64,000 bases of DNA. Source: Pannonibacter carbonis (GTDB lineage: Bacteria; Pseudomonadota; Alphaproteobacteria; Rhizobiales; Stappiaceae). This document shows, in pieces, positions 3,119-37,247 of this stretch (the first letter of the stretch is position 1; every line of letters starts with the position of its first letter). The notes under the pieces were generated by a model, which searched no databases, was not told the origin of the DNA, and saw only the letters and a program-made list of their open reading frames with translations. The translations under genes were made by a program, and so were the position numbers. The stretch spans positions 124,001 to 188,000 of the forward strand of contig NZ_PUDR01000010.1 in NCBI RefSeq assembly GCF_003012935.1, written 5' to 3'.

Positions 3119-3825
3119 GCCCGACGCGCAGCACGCCGAAGTCATCCCCCTTGAAGCGCAAGCCCGGCCTGCGCAGTGCGCCAGTGGCCCGGCAGGCACT
3201 GGGCGAGACCGACGGGAAGCCGACCCGCATCCAGGAACGCAACCGCGCCCGCATTCTCGAAGCCGGTCTCTCGGAATTCTCTCGTTTCGGCTTTGGCGGG
3301 GCGACGATCGAGAAGATCGCCGCCGGGGCAGGGATGTCGAAATCGAACCTGCTCTACTACTACCCGACCAAGACGGCGATCTACGAGGCCGTGCTGGAAC
3401 ACATCCTCGACACCTGGCTGGCACCGCTGCGCATGCTGGATATCACCGGCGATCCGGCGGCAGAGCTGGCGGATTACATCCGGCAGAAGTTGAAGATTTC
3501 AGCCGAGTGGCCTGAGGCATCACGTCTTTTTGCCTCCGAGATCCTGCAAGGAGCGCCGCAGGTGAAACCCGTGCTGCAGGGCTCGCTGCGCCAGCTGGTG
3601 AGCGAAAAGGCAGCCGTCATCCGCGCCTGGATCGCGGCAGGCAAACTCAAGCCGCATGTGGAGCCGGTGCATCTGATTTTCCTCATCTGGTCCGCGACGC
3701 AGCACTATGCCGACTTCGAAACGCAGGTTCTTGCGCTCACCGGCAAGACGCTGAAGGACGAGGCTTTCCGCGGCGAGGCAGAAGCAGCGCTGGTCGCCAC
3801 CATTCTCGGAGGCGTGCTGGCATGA
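3115..3825 (+). CDS. rutR: RutR-like TetR-family regulator, second of the pair
   Basis: This 236-residue protein is the closer of the two to E. coli RutR. Matching stretches include ILEAGLSEFSRFGFGGATIE, MSKSNLLYYYPTKTAIYEAVL, ILDTWLAPL, PEASRLFASEILQGAP and LIFLIWSATQHYADF. RutR is a dimeric repressor that releases DNA when it binds uracil or thymine. An N-terminal tail of about 35 residues, basic and proline-containing, precedes the helix-turn-helix. The gene overlaps its upstream paralogue and the downstream arfB gene by ATGA, so all three are probably co-translated. The two paralogues differ in the ligand half, so they may sense different metabolites or form heterodimers. Confidence 0.88.
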   Translation: MSPTRSTPKSSPLKRKPGLRSAPVARQALGETDGKPTRIQERNRARILEAGLSEFSRFGFGGATIEKIAAGAGMSKSNLLYYYPTKTAIYEAVLEHILDTWLAPLRMLDITGDPAAELADYIRQKLKISAEWPEASRLFASEILQGAPQVKPVLQGSLRQLVSEKAAVIRAWIAAGKLKPHVEPVHLIFLIWSATQHYADFETQVLALTGKTLKDEAFRGEAEAALVATILGGVLA

Positions 3826-4328
3826 GCGACCGGGTGCCTCCAGTGCCGCCCGCGCCGCCGGGTCCACCGTCGCCAAGGCCGCTCGAGATCGCGCCGGAAA
3901 GCCGCCGCATCACGATCAAGGGACGGCTGCATATTGACGAGCGCGACCTCAGCGAGGAGTTCATCCGCGCCTCCGGTCCGGGCGGCCAGAACGTCAACAA
4001 GGTCTCGACGGCGGTTCAGTTGCGTTTTCAACTTGACAACAACCGTACGTTGCCGGACGATGTGAAGCAACGGGCAGGGGAACTGGCCGGAAGTCGCCTG
4101 ACACAGGCCGGCGAAATCCTCATTCAGGCCGACCGGTTCCGCACGCGCGAACAAAACCGCGAGGATGCGCTGGCCCGGCTGATCGAGCTTCTGGTCAAGG
4201 CCGCACACCGCGACAAGCCGCGCAAGGCAACCCGTCCGACGCTCGCCTCCAAGAAGCGCCGTGTCGACACGAAGAAACAACGCGGCGGCATCAAGAAGCT
4301 GCGCAGCGGACGGCCGGACAGCGACTGA
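3822..4328 (+). CDS. arfB: Alternative ribosome-rescue factor ArfB (YaeJ-type peptidyl-tRNA hydrolase)
   Basis: This 168-residue class I release-factor-like protein carries the catalytic GGQ at residues 54-56 inside FIRASGPGGQNVNKVSTAVQ, without the codon-recognition domains of RF1/RF2. A strongly basic C-terminal tail (KATRPTLASKKRR, then KKQRGGIKKLR) is the part that in E. coli ArfB enters the empty mRNA channel of stalled ribosomes. The protein hydrolyses peptidyl-tRNA on ribosomes lacking a stop codon. The first 20 residues form a proline-rich extension not present in E. coli ArfB. The start overlaps the stop of the RutR-like gene, so it is translationally coupled to a regulator with no obvious functional link. 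Confidence 0.93.
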   Translation: MSDRVPPVPPAPPGPPSPRPLEIAPESRRITIKGRLHIDERDLSEEFIRASGPGGQNVNKVSTAVQLRFQLDNNRTLPDDVKQRAGELAGSRLTQAGEILIQADRFRTREQNREDALARLIELLVKAAHRDKPRKATRPTLASKKRRVDTKKQRGGIKKLRSGRPDSD

Positions 4329-30935: not shown

Positions 30936-31074
30936 TCCGGATCTCCCTCATCAGGCCGCGCGTCCGGCCTGATTTCCTGCCTCATGTGGCTGCTTTTACA
31001 GGATCAGTGCAAGGTTTGTTTCACACCGCAGCGCTATCCTTGGGTAGCCCTGTCCTGACAGGCTGGAGGTTGCC

Positions 31075-31365
31075 GTGGATGAACGCCGCAGCGCCCCGCG
31101 ACGGCGCACCCTGAAGTCTGCCCGCATTGTCTTCCACAATGGAACACGGGTTTATGACTGCGTGATCCGCAACACGTCGGATGGCGGGGTCCTGCTCAAC
31201 GTTCCCAGCACCCACGACGTGCCGGAGACGTTCCTGCTCTACATCGATTCGGAGCACAGCCGCCGTCCGGCCAAGGTCGTCTGGCGCACGGCGAACCAGA
31301 TCGGCGTGGCCTTTGCCGGCCCTGCGGAGCCGATCCCCGCACCGGGGCACCACGCCGGTCACTAG
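31075..31365 (+). CDS. Small PilZ-domain protein
   Basis: This 96-residue protein is a single PilZ domain. DERRSAPRRRT supplies the arginine motif that binds cyclic di-GMP, and CVIRNTSDGGVLLNV corresponds to the second motif (D/N-x-S-x-x-G), followed by beta-strands AKVVWRTANQIGVAF. It starts at GTG 31075, with GGAGG five bases upstream. It is transcribed away from the NnrU gene and ends convergently with arsJ. It probably works as a small c-di-GMP effector; its target is unknown. Confidence 0.85.
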   Translation: MDERRSAPRRRTLKSARIVFHNGTRVYDCVIRNTSDGGVLLNVPSTHDVPETFLLYIDSEHSRRPAKVVWRTANQIGVAFAGPAEPIPAPGHHAGH

Positions 31366-31372
31366 TCCCGGA

Positions 31373-32632
31373 TTACGCCGCGGCCAGACGCCGCGCCGCA
31401 ATCCAGCTTGCCAAAGCCATCAAACCAGCGGTGGCGAGGCACAGCGGCAGGCCGCCGAACTGGAAACTGAGGCCGGACAACAACGTCCCGGTCAGCCGGC
31501 CGGCAGCATTGGCCATGTAGTAGAACCCGACATCGCGGGTGATCCGGCCTGCATCGCCAAAAGCGAGGATCAGGTAGGAGTGGACCGACGAGTTGATGGC
31601 AAAGACAAAGCCGAACAGCAGAAGGCCAGCCACCAGCATGACGGTCAGCCACAGTGCCGGCGCACCTGCCACCCAGGCAGCAGCGGCCAGGACAAAGGGG
31701 ATCGGCACTAGGGCTCCGGCCCAGAAGATCGCCTTGCGCACCGTGGCCTCTTCCGGCTGGCCCTTGCCGCCAAGGATGCGCGGGGCAAAGCCCTGCACAA
31801 CGCCATAGGCGATGATCCACAGCGCCAGGAAACCACCGATGAGGAAGAACGCCTCGCGCCGGCCGTCAGGGGTGCCATCGGACAGGATCATCTGGAAATA
31901 GACCGGGATCCCGACCACGAACCAGACGTCGCGCGCGCCGAACAGGAACAGGCGTGCCAGCGACAGCCGGTTTACCCGGCTGTCCTTCGAGCGCCAGCCG
32001 CCCCAGGCCTCGTCCGACTTCATCCGGCCCGGCAGGCCGGCCGGCAGGAACAGGACGACAGCGGTGAGGATGACAGTGAGCACCGCTGCCATGCCCCACA
32101 CGGCGCTCTGGAACCCGGCGAGCGCCAGCAGCGCGGCTCCAAGGAAGAAGCCGAGGCCCTTGACCGCGTTCTTTGATCCGGTCAGAGCCGCGACCCAGCG
32201 GAACAGGCCCCCGTCCTCTTTCGGCGCCAGCAGCTTGACTGCCGACTTGGAGGACATCTTGGCCAGATCCTTGGCCACACCGGACACGCCCTGGACCGCC
32301 ATGACGAAGGCGACGGAGGCGGCTATTCCCCAGGCAGGGTCAAGCTGCGACAACGCCACCAGCGCCGCGATCTGCAGCGCCAAACCACCATAGAGCGTCG
32401 CTGCCAACCCGAAGCGCGCGGCCAGCCAGCCGGCCGCAAGGTTTGTGACGATCCCGGCGATTTCATAGAGCAGGAACAGCCAGGCAAGCTGGATTGGAGA
32501 GAAACCCAGGGTATTGAAATGCAGCAGCACCAGCATGCGCAGGGCGCCGTCGGACAGCATGAAGGCCCAGTAGGCCGCCGTCACGGCGGCATAGGCGCGC
32601 AGCGGATTGGCAGGGGTTACAGCGTCCGTCAT
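31373..32632 (-). CDS. arsJ: ArsJ organoarsenical (1-arseno-3-phosphoglycerate) efflux permease
   Basis: This 419-residue major facilitator has about 12 helices. Its start ([21 protein letters not shown]) and the loop [20 protein letters not shown] with [24 protein letters not shown] are hallmarks of ArsJ. ArsJ exports 1-arseno-3-phosphoglycerate, made when GAPDH uses arsenate in place of phosphate; the exported product falls apart to arsenate outside. The start overlaps the stop of the neighbouring GAPDH gene by ATGA, the expected partner. It is the last gene of the minus-strand arsenic operon. Confidence 0.93.
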
Positions 32633-33639
32633 AGCGCACCTGCGACCATGCGGGTGATGTCGGCCAGGCGGCAGGCATAGCCCCACTCGTTGTCATACCA
32701 GGCGTAGATCTTCACCTGCGTCCCGTTGATCACCATGGTCGACTGGGCATCGACAATGGACGAGCGTGGGTCATTGACGAAGTCCGTCGAGACCAGTGCG
32801 CGTGTCTCATAGCCGAGGATGCCCTTGAGCGGACCATCCGCAGCGGCCTTGAACAGGGCGTTCACTTCCTCTGCCGTTGTTTCCCGCTCCACTTCAAACA
32901 CGCAGTCGGTGATCGAGGCATTGAGCAGTGGCACACGCACCGCGTGGCCATTGAGCCGGCCCTTGAGCTCCGGATAGATCAGGGTGATGGCCGTGGCCGA
33001 ACCCGTGGTCGTCGGGATCAGGTTCATCAGCGCAGACCGGGCGCGACGCATGTCCTTGGCCGGACGATCGACGATGGTCTGCGTGTTGGTGACATCATGG
33101 ATCGTCGTGATCGAGCCATGCCGGATGCCGATGGCCTCATGGATCACTTTCACCACCGGCGCCAGACAATTGGTGGTGCAGGACGCTGCCGTGATCAGGC
33201 TGTGCTCGGCCGGCTGATACAGATGGTGATTGACGCCATAAACAAGGTTCAGGGCCCCGCCATCCTTCACAGGCGCGCTGACCACCACCTTCTTAACCCC
33301 GGCCTCGTAGTAAGGCGCGACCTTGGCGCCCGTCTTGAAGACACCGGTGCAGTCGATGACGATGTCCACGCCGAGTTCCGCCAGCGGCAGCGCCTCGATG
33401 GTCTTTTCATGGCTCAGGCGGATCGTCTTGCCGTCCAGCATCAGCGCCCCGTCCTGATGGCTCACCGGGGTGCGCCAACGTCCGTGCACGCTGTCGAATT
33501 CCATCAGCAGCGCGTGCTGCTCCGCATCCCCGACCGGATCATTCAGGAGGACAATATCGCCCCCTGCCCCGCTGTCGATGAGGTCCCGCAGGACAAGCTT
33601 GCCAATGCGGCCAAGGCCGTTCAGGGCGATACGCGGCAT
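32629..33639 (-). CDS. ArsJ-associated glyceraldehyde-3-phosphate dehydrogenase
   Basis: This 336-residue GAPDH has [13 protein letters not shown] (NAD-binding), the catalytic cysteine in [10 protein letters not shown], and the phosphate site around TTTGSATA and HGRW. It differs from the glycolytic enzyme in details such as [24 protein letters not shown]. In the presence of arsenate it would make 1-arseno-3-phosphoglycerate from glyceraldehyde 3-phosphate. It is coupled to arsJ by a 4-bp overlap and follows the arsR-arsC fusion gene by 121 bp. ATG 33639 (AAAGG upstream) is preferred over TTG 33648. Confidence 0.93.
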
Positions 33640-33760
33640 GTCAGTCAACCTTTCAGGAAATCAGGCCCGACCCCGATGAGGAACTTCACCGGAGATCGGG
33701 TGGCGCAGACCAGCGCCGTTGCACTCAGGTCGCGGGGCGATCCATCGTAAGAGCCGTGCG

Positions 33761-34627
33761 TCAGGAACCGCTCTCGGCAGCGGCTGCATCCCCGGCAAGT
33801 CCATCGCCAGCGATGTCATCTATCCGGGCCTGCAGGGCGAGGCGATTGAGCGAGGCAAAGGGCAGTTCGACGAAGATCGCGATGCGCCGGCGCAGGGCGC
33901 CATAGGTCTGGGAAAACACAACCGCCTTTTCGGCATCGCTGCCTGTCGCCTTGACCGGATCCGGCAGGCCCCAGTGACCGGTGATCGGCTGGCCCATCCA
34001 TGGCGGGCATTCCTCGGCAGCGGCGGTGTCACAGACGGTGAACACGAAATCCATCACCGGGGCACCCGGCTGCTGGAATTCGGTGATCTGCTTGGATCGC
34101 AATCCGCTCGTGTCATGGCCGTTGCGCTGCAGCACTTCGATCGCGAAGGGATTGAGTTCGGAGCCTGCGCGGGTCCCGCCCGAATAGGCATTGAACCGGC
34201 CCTTGCCCAGATCGCGCAGCAGCGCTTCGGCAAAGATCGAGCGGGCAGAGTTGCCCGAGCAGATGAACAGCACGTTGAAACCGGTGTCACGCATAGGCGG
34301 AGTATCCTTTTGTGCGAGGAGAAGCGGCACCACAAGATCCGGCCGGGCCCTGCCGACATCGAGCGCGAGATAGCCGATCAGGGCCTCGGTCGCCTCGAGA
34401 TTCACCGAATAGAGCAGCGAGCGGCCTTGCCGCTCGACCTGAATGATTCCGGACGCCAAAAGGTCCGAAAGATAGTGAGACAGCGTGTTCTGCTTCAGAC
34501 CGAGCGCGTCCGCGATCTCGGTCGGCCTCACCCCGCGCGGCGCAAACCGCATCAGCAGGCGAAAGACACCGAGGCGGCCGGCATGGCCAAGTGCAGCAAA
34601 GGCAAGAGCAGCGCGTTCTGTTTCCAT
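33761..34627 (-). CDS. ArsR-ArsC fusion: arsenic repressor joined to arsenate reductase
   Basis: This 288-residue protein has two domains. Residues 1-90 are an ArsR winged helix (LGHAGRLGVFRLLM, GLKQNTLSHYLSDLLASGII, GRSLLYSV). Residues 115-265 are a low-molecular-weight phosphatase-type arsenate reductase: catalytic loop C123-SGNSA-R129, GHDTSGLRSKQ, and redox cysteines C199 and C207 in FTVCDTAAAEECPPWMG. Such ArsC enzymes reduce arsenate to arsenite with thioredoxin. One polypeptide would thus sense arsenic and make the arsenite that relieves repression. A perfect inverted repeat overlapping the ribosome binding site lies 1 bp before ATG 34627. The ArsR half has no cysteine, so the classical arsenite-binding site is not visible. 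Confidence 0.9.
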   Translation of the reverse strand: METERAALAFAALGHAGRLGVFRLLMRFAPRGVRPTEIADALGLKQNTLSHYLSDLLASGIIQVERQGRSLLYSVNLEATEALIGYLALDVGRARPDLVVPLLLAQKDTPPMRDTGFNVLFICSGNSARSIFAEALLRDLGKGRFNAYSGGTRAGSELNPFAIEVLQRNGHDTSGLRSKQITEFQQPGAPVMDFVFTVCDTAAAEECPPWMGQPITGHWGLPDPVKATGSDAEKAVVFSQTYGALRRRIAIFVELPFASLNRLALQARIDDIAGDGLAGDAAAAESGS

Positions 34628-34647
34628 ATTTCCTGAATGCAGGAAAT
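34628..34647. promoter_or_regulatory. Operator-like perfect inverted repeat at the arsR-arsC ribosome binding site
   Basis: ATTTCCTGaatgCAGGAAAT has perfect 8-bp arms. It begins 1 bp upstream of the start codon, and its arm nearest the gene (AGGAAAT on the minus strand) is the Shine-Dalgarno sequence. It is a good candidate for ArsR-type autorepression, and could also form an mRNA hairpin that hides the ribosome site. Confidence 0.6.
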
Positions 34648-34734
34648 GTTTGTCACAGTCCAGTGAAGTTTTGATGACAGGGACACCCCCGACCCAGGAA
34701 CAGGCACAGGAACAGGCAAAAGAACGCGAACGGG

Positions 34735-35757
34735 TCAGGCTGCCGGAAACCGCTCCCGCGTGCGGTTGGCGATGGCGACAAGGCTCAGCATCACCGGCAC
34801 TTCGACCAGGACCCCGACCACCGTTGCAAGGGCAGCGCCGGAATTGAGCCCGAACAGACCGATGGCAACTGCGACCGCCAGTTCAAAGAAGTTGGACGTG
34901 CCGATCAGCGCACAGGGCGCGGCCACCTTGTGCGGCAGACGCCAGGCAAAGGCCCAGGCATAGCCGACTGCGAAAATGGCATAGGACTGGATCAGGATCG
35001 GCACGGCAATCAGCCCGATCAGCAGCGGCTGTGCGAGGATTACCTGACCCTGGAACCCGAACAGCAGCACAACGGTCAGGAGCAGCCCGACGATGGAGGC
35101 CGGCTTGATGCGGGACGTAAAGTCGCTGACAGCACCCTCGCCGCCTCGGGCAAGCAAGGCCTGCCGCGTCAGCCAGCCTGCGATCAGCGGAATGACGATG
35201 TAGAGCACCACCGACAGCACCAGCGTTTCCCACGGCACGGAAATCTCCGTCACCCCGAGCAGGAAGGCCACAATCGGCGCGAAGGCGATAACCATCACCA
35301 GGTCATTCACCGAGACCTGCACCAGCGTGTAGTTCGGGTCACCCTTGGTCATCTGCGACCAGACAAACACCATCGCGGTGCAGGGCGCAGCACCCAGCAG
35401 GATCAGGCCGGCGATGTACTCCGGGGCCCGTGCCGGATCGATCAGGCCGGCAAAGGCATAATCGAAGAACAGCACCGCCAGCGCTGCCATGGTGAAGGGC
35501 TTGATCAGCCAGTTCACCACCAAGGTAATGACCAGCCCCTTGGGCCGCTTGCCGACGGCTTTGAGGGAGGTGAAGTCGATGGCGATCATCATCGGGTAGA
35601 CCATCGCCCAGATCAGCACCGCAACGACAAGATTGACCGAAGCATATTCCAGCTTTGCCAGCACCGCGAACAGGTCCGGCAGCAACCAGCCGAGCGCAAT
35701 GCCGGCGACAATGCACAAAGCCACCCAAAGGGTCAGCCAACGCTCGAACAGGCTCAT
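34735..35757 (-). CDS. acr3: Acr3-family arsenite efflux permease
   Basis: This 340-residue inner-membrane protein has about ten helices. It begins [22 protein letters not shown] and has the family's essential cysteine in [19 protein letters not shown] and the conserved end [21 protein letters not shown]. Acr3 exports arsenite using the proton gradient. ATG 35757 has GAGGAG upstream and overlaps the arsR stop (ATGA). It would remove arsenite made by the ArsC half of the downstream fusion protein. Confidence 0.95.
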
Positions 35758-36077
35758 GATCTCTCCTCTGCAACGGGCAGGCAGCAGCCGGTCCCGGTCG
35801 GCGGTGTCAGGGCAGCAATAAAGGCGGCGAGCGGCGCCAGGGCATCCGGCGTCAAGGCGTAGCAGACCTTCGGGCCGCTGATCTCGCCGCTGATAATGCC
35901 GGCCGCCTTGAGGATGCGCAGGTGTTCGGACACGGTCGATTGCGCCAGTCCAACGGCATTGACGATGTCCCCGCCGATGCATCCCGGCGTTGCCATCAGC
36001 AGCCGGACAATGCGGATACGCGCCGGATGGCCAAGGGCCTTGGCCAGATCCGCGATCTGTTCGTTGCTACCGGGCAT
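35754..36077 (-). CDS. arsR: ArsR-family arsenic-responsive repressor
   Basis: This 107-residue winged-helix protein has [14 protein letters not shown], the recognition helix [20 protein letters not shown] and the wing SGPKVCYAL. Cysteines at 33, 72, 98 and 99 offer a possible arsenite site; a vicinal C-terminal pair with more distant cysteines resembles atypical ArsR proteins that bind arsenic with C-terminal thiols. An inverted repeat lies 18 bp upstream. GAGG precedes ATG 36077. It is the first gene of the island and is coupled to acr3. Confidence 0.92.
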
Positions 36078-36094
36078 TGTCACCTCGCTTCGTT

Positions 36095-36112
36095 TATCGT
36101 CGATAGACGATA
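36095..36112. promoter_or_regulatory. ArsR operator upstream of arsR-acr3
   Basis: TATCGTC-GATA-GACGATA is a perfect inverted repeat with 7-bp arms, 18 bp upstream of the arsR start. Size, AT/GC mix and place fit an ArsR operator. It differs from the repeat before the arsR-arsC fusion, so the two ArsR domains probably recognise different sites. Confidence 0.68.
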
Positions 36113-36158
36113 GAACAAGCGGAAGCAAGTCCCGGCGGGGCCTGCGCGTGATCAGGGA

Positions 36159-36980
36159 TTACAGGACCTGCGCCAGAAAACCGATGATGGCCTTCAGCGT
36201 CTGTGTCTCATGGCTGCGGTGGGGAAAATGCCCGGCATCGGGCAGAAGCAGCGCGCTTACCGGCACCCTGGCTGTCCGGGCGATGCGTTGCGGCTGTGCG
36301 GGCGAGCCATATTCATCCAGGGCGCCGTGAATGGTCAGCACCGGCGAGGTGATCCGCCCGATCTCCGCATCAAGACACCAGTCGTCAAAGGCCGGCGACA
36401 GCCAGGATCCGATCCAGGCATCCAGCACCCAGTCCGTGCGGGGGCCGTGATACTTCTCCAGCCGCGCTTTCAGCTGGGGATCGGCGAAGTCCTCGGCGGC
36501 CTTGCGGATCCCGGCCCGGGTCAGGTCTTCCAGAAAGCTCTGCGCCGAGATGGTGATCACGGCGCGGCACCGCGCGCCGAACACGGCCCCCGCCGCCAGC
36601 GCCATCCCGCCACCGACGCTATGCCCGACAACCACAAACTCCGCGATTCCCAGGGCATCAAGAACGGTGGCAAGTTCCCCGGTCGCATCAAGGGTGACGA
36701 AATTCGCAGGCGGACGCTCATTCAATCGGCTGGAGCGGCCAAACCCGATACGGTCATAGGCGATCACCTTTCGGCCGATCGCAAGGGCAATCCGTTCAGG
36801 AAGATCACGCCACAGGTCAATGCATCCAAGGGAATCATGCAACAGGATGATCGGCACCCCTGCTGCTCGAGAATGGTTCTGCGGCTGCCACTGGCGTACA
36901 GACACGAAACCTTGATCGGTCGGAACAAGGTGGTCCACCACGCTGCAGCGCAAATCTGCGAGGGTCTGCACTCCATCCAC
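36159..36980 (-). CDS. Alpha/beta hydrolase of unknown substrate
   Basis: This 273-residue protein has the alpha/beta hydrolase fold. HDSLGCIDLWRDLP is in the oxyanion region, the nucleophile elbow is GHSVGGGMAL, the acid is in HGALDEYGSP and the histidine in DAGHFPHR. It lacks a signal peptide, so is cytoplasmic. The start is GTG 36980 with GGAGGAG eight bases upstream; a nearby ATG is out of frame. It may be a carboxylesterase or haloperoxidase-like enzyme. It is adjacent to the arsenic operon but has its own upstream region, so no functional link is implied. Confidence 0.82.
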   Translation of the reverse strand: MDGVQTLADLRCSVVDHLVPTDQGFVSVRQWQPQNHSRAAGVPIILLHDSLGCIDLWRDLPERIALAIGRKVIAYDRIGFGRSSRLNERPPANFVTLDATGELATVLDALGIAEFVVVGHSVGGGMALAAGAVFGARCRAVITISAQSFLEDLTRAGIRKAAEDFADPQLKARLEKYHGPRTDWVLDAWIGSWLSPAFDDWCLDAEIGRITSPVLTIHGALDEYGSPAQPQRIARTARVPVSALLLPDAGHFPHRSHETQTLKAIIGFLAQVL

Positions 36981-37247
36981 CCGGCATTCTCCTCCGGCAA
37001 TTGACCAGCGGACCCCTTTTCACGTTCCTGTGGCAATGGCGAGCCGTCCAAAAGGAGGAAGCGGCCGGGGGGCGACCTGCGCGCGCGACGCATGGCAGTC
37101 ACGTAAAACTTTCATGCTTAGAATAACCCTACGTAAATTATGCAATGCCATTCTACTTCGGTTCTTGCCGCCATGAGAAAGCGGTTAAGCTTCGCTTAGG
37201 CGTTGCCAGTGAATTTGAATTGCATCGAAGGTCGGGAGAAATGCGCT

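Follow-up and report, generated by a model that had tools for sequence, protein, structure and literature searches.

A cysteine-free ArsR half in a fused ArsR-ArsC protein heading an arsRC-gapdh-arsJ operon with a putative PHO box

Organization of the arsenic locus and of the fused gene

The window, that is, the whole 64,000-nucleotide stretch of Pannonibacter carbonis DNA analysed here, carries arsenic genes on its minus strand in the order arsR, acr3, arsRC, gapdh, arsJ. The genes, the two halves of the fused product and an upstream dyad are located as follows.

36086..36121, no strand assigned: dyad 5′ of the second arsR, with 16-nt arms (81%); may serve as the operator of that gene
35754..36077, minus strand: second, separate arsR, 5′ of acr3 (HTH_metalloreg 69 bits, cut-off 55)
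34735..35760, minus strand: acr3, arsenite exporter (TIGR00832 403 bits, cut-off 283)
33761..34627, minus strand: arsRC, fused ArsR-ArsC of 288 aa, with an ATG start and no internal stop
34328..34627, minus strand: ArsR winged-helix half, residues 1-100, no cysteine (HTH_5 and HTH_metalloreg scores)
33860..34279, minus strand: LMW-phosphatase-type ArsC half, residues 117-256 (LMWPc and PDB matches)
32629..33639, minus strand: gapdh, ArsJ-associated glyceraldehyde-3-phosphate dehydrogenase (NF033735 554 bits, cut-off 450)
31373..32632, minus strand: arsJ, MFS exporter (NF033734 520 bits, cut-off 400)

ArsJ and its GAPDH export arsenate as 1-arseno-3-phosphoglycerate. The listed open reading frames of gapdh and arsJ begin at 33648 and 32686, and their ATG codons were read at 33639 and 32632 respectively. 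Between the 3′ end of acr3 and the arsRC ATG lie 107 bases, and with acr3 directly upstream, arsenite is handled at the locus as well. The second arsR bears cysteines (PGCIGGD, KVCYAL, TGCCLP), and the dyad at 36086-36121 suggests separate control of the arsR-acr3 unit. Rfam searches over 31000-37000 and a tRNA scan gave no matches, and a sigma-70 promoter scan found none.

A single reading frame joins the ArsR winged helix and the LMW-phosphatase ArsC in 33761-34627. HTH_5 matched residues 35-63 at 22.2 bits, barely above the Pfam cut-off of 22, and HTH_metalloreg matched the ArsR half at 47.8 bits, under its cut-off of 55; among solved structures this half matched AfArsR (6j05) at 6e-9. LMWPc matched residues 119-227 at 55 bits (Pfam cut-off 23.2). 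The equivalog TIGR02691 scored 68.7 bits on the ArsC half, below its cut-off of 174.3, and was still the top ArsC model. PDB matches of this half were 8p5n (2e-20) and 1jl3 (2e-13), the solved relatives being arsenate reductases. AlphaFold2 run without an alignment gave a pLDDT of 38.6 and an unusable structure.

The only cysteines of the chain are C123, C199 and C207, with none in residues 1-122. The ArsC half contains the CX5R loop C123-S-G-N-S-A-R129-S, the redox pair C199/C207, and D223, which lies in HWGLPDP and aligns with HWGFDDP of 1jl3; C123, R129, C199, C207 and D223 are presumed to have the catalytic and redox roles of the enzyme. The first-pass annotation had placed the gene at these coordinates, with C123, R129, C199 and C207 and a cysteine-free ArsR half, and this was borne out by the reading frame, Pfam and the alignment. 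Its description of a complete LMW-phosphatase-type reductase half also holds, as the CX5R loop, two redox cysteines and the catalytic Asp were all found. Absent from it were the gapdh-arsJ pair and, as described below, the internal start of arsC and the PHO box.

Loss of the arsenite-binding cysteines among fused proteins

In most relatives the ArsR half carries a CC pair at the end of the dimer helix. The corresponding positions in the window are the following.

34352..34357, minus strand: V91-G92, in the place of the CC pair of relatives (Cys95-Cys96 of AfArsR), lost
34331..34333, minus strand: V99, where most CC relatives have their third cysteine, lost

Arsenite sensing through ArsR thiols had been judged not evident at first pass, and the comparison agrees: V91, G92 and V99 stand where relatives have C, C and C. 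In the first genome search 60 of 61 genomes matched, one being that of the window; in many of them arsR and arsC are adjacent but separate genes. Wider searches covered 397 genomes of the order and 385 of the class, and a contig search for related loci gave two distant ones. Plasmid records gave 783 matches; in 205 of them, possibly with unfused neighbours included, 80% or more of the query was covered at a single locus. Relatives with the same layout and 72-82% identity were found in Paracoccus, Neotabrizicola, Rhodobacter, Pseudosulfitobacter and Tistrella.

The survey for the fusion and its cysteine pattern, which the first-pass annotation had proposed, covered 80 fused proteins, window included, as a non-exhaustive sample; L070, L082, L083 and L244-L252 were checked for the CC pair alone. 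The pair is kept in 65 of the 80, three have one cysteine and 12 have neither. Among the CC proteins of the 64-row tree a third cysteine is close by in 45/51, as in DCCRGRPELC, and the three one-cysteine fusions read DCGRGRP. The 12 cysteine-less proteins comprise a ten-member clade that includes the window (D/H-V/L-G-R-A/G-R-P) and L127 and L129, with unrelated sequence at the site. A sensor-site cysteine is present in none of the ten, and the entire ArsR half is cysteine-free in seven; L086, L089 and L231 bear an unrelated cysteine there. Two laboratory strains carry members of the series: the Rhodobacter capsulatus SB1003 copy has no sensor-site cysteine and that of Cereibacter sphaeroides 2.4.1 has one; both kinds occur in Paracoccus (L088 with CC, L084 and L089 with none). 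Unfused ArsRs just upstream of an LMW-type arsC (loci L007-L083) have CC in 39/39 cases, although the profile that detected them derives largely from CC-type halves and may be biased towards CC.

The tree of 64 rows was a quick LG+G4 tree with the sensor columns left out, and 24 of its 61 inner branches are weak. L104 (on the same plasmid as L131), L127, L129 and L142 (no ArsR half) were left out before the promoter count, and L098 and L128, on short contigs, were also left out of the trees. The window's ten form one clade (SH-aLRT 99), nested in a 14-row clade (SH-aLRT 99) with the three one-cysteine proteins and one CC protein (Haematobacter, L133). L127 (6467-7450) and L129 (6416-7360) are genuine fusions of another lineage; they are 58% identical and form their own branch (SH-aLRT 99). 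With both added, the 66-row tree requires a minimum of three changes between CC and loss. On the evidence of these trees, the lack of cysteines in the window's ArsR half is a derived loss from CC-bearing ancestors, and the site was lost in at least two places in the fused tree.

Members of the window clade come from Rhodobacterales plasmids, from Tistrella and from the window genome. The Rhodobacterales are probably of another order than the window, because the search of the order (397 genomes) gave no match above 56% identity over both halves; Tistrella is of a different order. This spread across orders suggests that the cassette has probably moved between lineages.

Median dN/dS among the ten (NG86, 45 pairs) is 0.16 for the ArsR half and 0.19 for the ArsC half, rough values as some dS exceed 1. 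Invariant columns number 53/100 in the ArsR half and 77/140 in the ArsC half, and the catalytic C, R and D and both redox cysteines are invariant in 10/10. To judge by these substitution patterns, both halves of the window clade are under purifying selection after the cysteine loss. Columns that shifted alongside the loss lie in the DNA-reading part (P35, T36, H51, D55) and in the ArsC loop and redox helix (S124, beside the catalytic cysteine, T201 and A204), which is a pattern and no proof. A quirk or decay of a single genome was considered as the cause of the loss and rejected, since the loss is clade-wide and accompanied by purifying selection.

The genes following arsRC were compared among relatives. 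gapdh and arsJ follow in 10/10 members of the window clade and in 3/3 one-cysteine genes; CC genes of the 64-row tree are followed by gapdh-arsJ in 30/51 and otherwise in 21/51. As 30 linked fusions keep CC, loss of the cysteines is unnecessary for this job. No gapdh-arsJ lies near L127, which has acr3 in range, or L129. Confinement of the loss to gapdh-arsJ operons was thus rejected, and with it a tie between the loss and arsenate export. These two fusions cut both ways: they support a sensor outside the ArsR half, and they weaken the tie to arsenate export. At plasmid loci such as L084, L089 and L131 the gene table, which is incomplete, shows neither a second arsR nor an acr3 within some 4.5 kb, so that ArsRC is the sole visible local regulator there.

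Forty arsJ loci were sampled across the phylum, and gapdh was found in 39. Their regulators were fused in six cases and unfused ArsR in 28, with none found in six. The 28 unfused ArsRs have CVC (18), CC (6) or an altered motif (4; L199, L202, L204, L205). Arsenite sensing is thus the usual control of arsJ operons, and, as far as motifs tell, altered arsenite sites before arsJ occur elsewhere as a minority. The altered CVC motif of the four resembles that reported for V. cholerae ArsR.

Operator, PHO box and internal arsC start

Elements predicted within and upstream of arsRC are listed below.

34663..34679, minus strand: putative PHO box TGTCATCAAAACTTCAC, starting 52 nt before the arsRC ATG, upstream of the operator
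34628..34647, minus strand: predicted operator palindrome ATTTCCTG-AATG-CAGGAAAT, abutting the arsRC ATG (from sequence and conservation)
34305..34309, minus strand: AAGGA, Shine-Dalgarno-like, 10 nt before the internal ATG
34292..34294, minus strand: internal ATG (M112), a relic or working arsC start that would give a 177-aa free ArsC

The palindrome at 34628-34647, noted at first pass as the site for DNA-binding assays, is real, with 8/8 pairs. A dyad of the ATTTC...GAAAT type lies directly 5′ of the ATG in many fused genes. In nine cysteine-less rows it has a mean of 7.1/9 pairs versus 5.1 in shuffled sequence; at least 7/9 pairs occur in 5/9 cysteine-less rows (3% of shuffles), in 15/47 CC rows (7%) and in 0/2 one-cysteine rows. 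The stretch 34628-34647 also includes the arsRC ribosome site AGGA, and the transcript could fold an 8-bp hairpin there. A gene on a Paracoccus aestuarii plasmid (L142, 4440-5060) has no ArsR half; inspected by eye, its operator looks decayed, and a PHO-type element, CTGTCATGGGAATGTCAT, is retained.

The window element fits the E. coli PHO repeat CTGTCAT (PMC4415409, cited from an excerpt). The pattern TGTCAYNNAANCTTCAY has two exact sites in the 4.78-Mb genome and none when read backwards. Three phnC genes of the genome exceed the curated cut-off, and the second site precedes the start of one of them by 94 bases. Ten further genomes gave eight exact sites and none backwards. Four are before phnG, one is before a 107-aa phoX-like ORF and one is beside a TIGR03308 phosphonate gene, so that 6/8 accompany such genes; the remaining two are near a PhnS-like protein below cut-off and near an unrelated binding protein. 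The window genome also encodes a PhoB that scores above cut-off.

Counts within the cassettes are partly circular, since the pattern was drawn up from these promoters, and the sites elsewhere are the real test; at no more than three mismatches, the box starts 51-52 bases before the ATG in 9/10 cysteine-less genes and is present in 19/37 promoters linked to gapdh-arsJ versus 1/23 unlinked ones (Fisher p 1.6e-4), L098 being counted as unlinked with only about 160 bases of downstream sequence. On tree rows the counts are 21/43 linked versus 1/21 unlinked, but independent tree pairs cannot reach significance, and an association of the box with gapdh-arsJ is therefore not claimed. The exception among the ten is Paracoccus MC1862 (L084), where an IS21-type istB (3499-4293) lies between a phoX/GDPD pair and the arsRC cassette. 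As the box is also present in CC-type cassettes, it goes with the operon and not with the cysteine loss. From its promoter sequences, the arsRC-gapdh-arsJ operon seems tuned to phosphate starvation. In another genome (contig C5, positions 190805-194107; L090, L177) some 1.8 kb separate a CC-type arsRC from a phnC gene for phosphonate import.

An ATG just before the ArsC half is present in 51/64 fused genes. A Shine-Dalgarno match of at least four bases at a fit distance precedes 42/51 of these ATGs versus 23/265 other in-frame ATGs of the same genes; in the window clade the ATG is found in 10/10 and the site in 9/10. The ribosome site is spelled by different codons across the proteins, which suggests that it was kept as an RNA signal or inherited from an unfused arsC. 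The P. aestuarii arsC on L142 starts at the position of the window's internal ATG. Retention of the ATG and its ribosome site in fused genes suggests that free ArsC is probably made beside ArsRC.

Possible signals of ArsRC and comparison with known systems

The ArsR half cannot sense by the usual route, because the ancestral arsenite-binding cysteines are gone; as far as the sequence allows, arsenite sensing by ArsR-half thiols is ruled out. The ArsC half would be the only part of the chain with arsenic chemistry, predicted to bind arsenate and to cycle through three thiols. Repeated loss of the ArsR site among fusions, against 0/39 losses in unfused neighbours, fits a sensor in the fused enzyme. 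We therefore tentatively favour the view that ArsRC responds to arsenate, or to arsenate turnover, at its ArsC half; this is quite possible.

ArsRC would act as autorepressor and reductase of an arsRC-gapdh-arsJ arsenate-export operon. Without arsenate, a dimer of the ArsR half would sit on the operator abutting the start codon and block expression, as is expected from the family and from the operator. Under phosphate starvation PhoB may bind the PHO box, which is in the place of a -35 element, and the high-affinity phosphate importer would bring arsenate in too. Arsenate at C123/R129, or its turnover through the C123-C199-C207 relay, could then alter the dimer such that DNA is released. The released operon would supply GAPDH, ArsJ and more ArsRC, and the internal start probably free ArsC. 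It is possible, rather than probable, that this amounts to a double control, in which ArsRC reads arsenate through a live enzyme domain and PhoB is the second input: the operon would open only when phosphate is scarce and arsenate is inside, the internal start would give free enzyme, and the fused enzyme would have made the arsenite site dispensable, allowing its repeated loss.

Arsenite, made at C123 or cellular, could instead be held by C123, C199 and C207 of the ArsC half and release DNA. The three thiols are kept in all ten clade members and in L127 and L129. Sensing of arsenite is also the rule among family members, and the published ArsRC senses it too, according to the review excerpt (PMC9479143). 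This is unlikely, however: in the enzyme family these thiols are established to work in catalysis and in reduction by thioredoxin, and ArsRCs of the CC type, which have the triad too, retained a separate site in the ArsR half.

It is distinctly improbable that a cysteine-free site in the ArsR half senses arsenate, another oxyanion or a metabolite, the ArsC half being an enzyme only. Excerpted reports suggest such sensing for V. cholerae ArsR, in which C is changed to A in the arsenite motif and whose var operon is arsenate-inducible (PMC9601151), and DNA binding by T. thermophilus SmtB (TtSmtB) was lowered more by arsenate than by arsenite (PMC5658604). GRxRP is also conserved where the cysteines were lost in the window clade. 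However, TtSmtB has three cysteines according to the same source, and L127 and L129, where the site was likewise lost, are without GRxRP.

The locus might give no arsenic response, with PhoB overriding a constitutive repressor or arsRC serving as a weak feedback brake. The sensor is lost, the PHO box is present in 9/10 cysteine-less rows (at most three mismatches), and L127 and L129 have no gapdh-arsJ near. The ArsR half and operator dyad are nevertheless conserved beside an intact enzyme, and where the ArsR half is gone, in P. aestuarii, the operator looks decayed while the PHO-type element stays; we consider this reading about as improbable as a cysteine-free site in the ArsR half, or slightly more so. 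The mode described for Paracoccus ArsRC (PMC9479143, in excerpt), in which the ArsC half reduces arsenate and arsenite binds ArsR-half thiols, is very improbable here, being contradicted by a thiol-free ArsR half and by a sensor-site cysteine in 0/10 clade members.

An arsenate-read ArsRC bears on the way in which bacteria detect arsenate as such, as opposed to the arsenite derived from it. The CC-pair, one-cysteine and cysteine-less members of the ArsRC family make up a natural series with similar operon and enzyme half, and the PHO box provides a simple rationale for tying arsenate export to phosphate hunger. As the internal start cautions, a fusion gene may yield two products. An enzyme-gated arsenate repressor, if true, would be useful for biosensors.

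The ArsRC fusion itself is known; new here are the derived cysteine loss, the purifying selection on both halves after it, the arsRC-gapdh-arsJ link, the PHO box and the internal start. The one-protein enzyme-repressor switch put forward at first pass stands in part: the ArsR site is lost and the ArsC catalytic residues are kept, from which a sensor in the enzyme half would follow naturally, with redox state, arsenate and arsenite as candidate signals; a repressor-reductase of the ArsRC type had already been published. Among the listed matches and excerpts of open-licence full texts on ArsRC, on PhoB or the Pho regulon with arsJ, and on arsenate-sensing ArsR, no report was found of the cysteine-less clade, of a PHO box for arsRC-gapdh-arsJ or of the internal start.

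The sources compared below are likewise cited from excerpts. The Paracoccus sp. ArsRC (Chen, Galvan, Nadar, Yoshinaga, Rosen 2022, Environ. Microbiol. 24:1977, via PMC9479143) likewise has ArsR and ArsC in one chain, with arsenate reduction coupled to ArsR, and the review states that reduction in the same protein makes arsenite binding by ArsR more efficient. Its ArsR is said to bind arsenite, in contrast to the prediction for the window, a point taken here from the review account. ArsR-ArsC fusions described in Leptospirillum, Microbacterium and Sinorhizobium (PMC6205960, PMC4443643) and actinobacterial ArsR-ArsC2 fusions (PMC6514093) also combine both in one protein, and are likened by description.

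Arsenite is bound by Cys95, Cys96 and Cys102 in AfArsR of Acidithiobacillus ferrooxidans (PMC9137774). Its structure (PDB 6j05) gives the best match among solved ArsRs; for a CC-type relative of the window's ArsR half the match is at 9e-24 and places the CC pair on NCC. The third cysteine of AfArsR is one residue nearer than that of CC relatives, and the window has DVG and V instead of NCC and Cys.

The same coupling of phosphate starvation to arsenic genes is reported in Halomonas HAL1, where PhoB is linked to aioBA (PMC4563254), and in phosphate-limited Nodularia, with gapdh, arsJ and sphX (PMC9846622); the promoter there is other than that of arsRC. A further parallel is the arsenate-inducible V. 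cholerae var operon (ArsR, VarG, VarH, ArsJ), whose ArsR is suspected of sensing arsenate, a point said to need more research (PMC9601151). There too an ArsR of altered motif heads a gapdh-arsJ operon with a phosphatase-superfamily protein. In V. cholerae, however, ArsR and VarH are two proteins, the latter a phosphatase of the dual-specificity type and no ArsC, and arsenate reduction is described as absent, whereas in the window the repressor and a complete arsenate reductase half share one chain.
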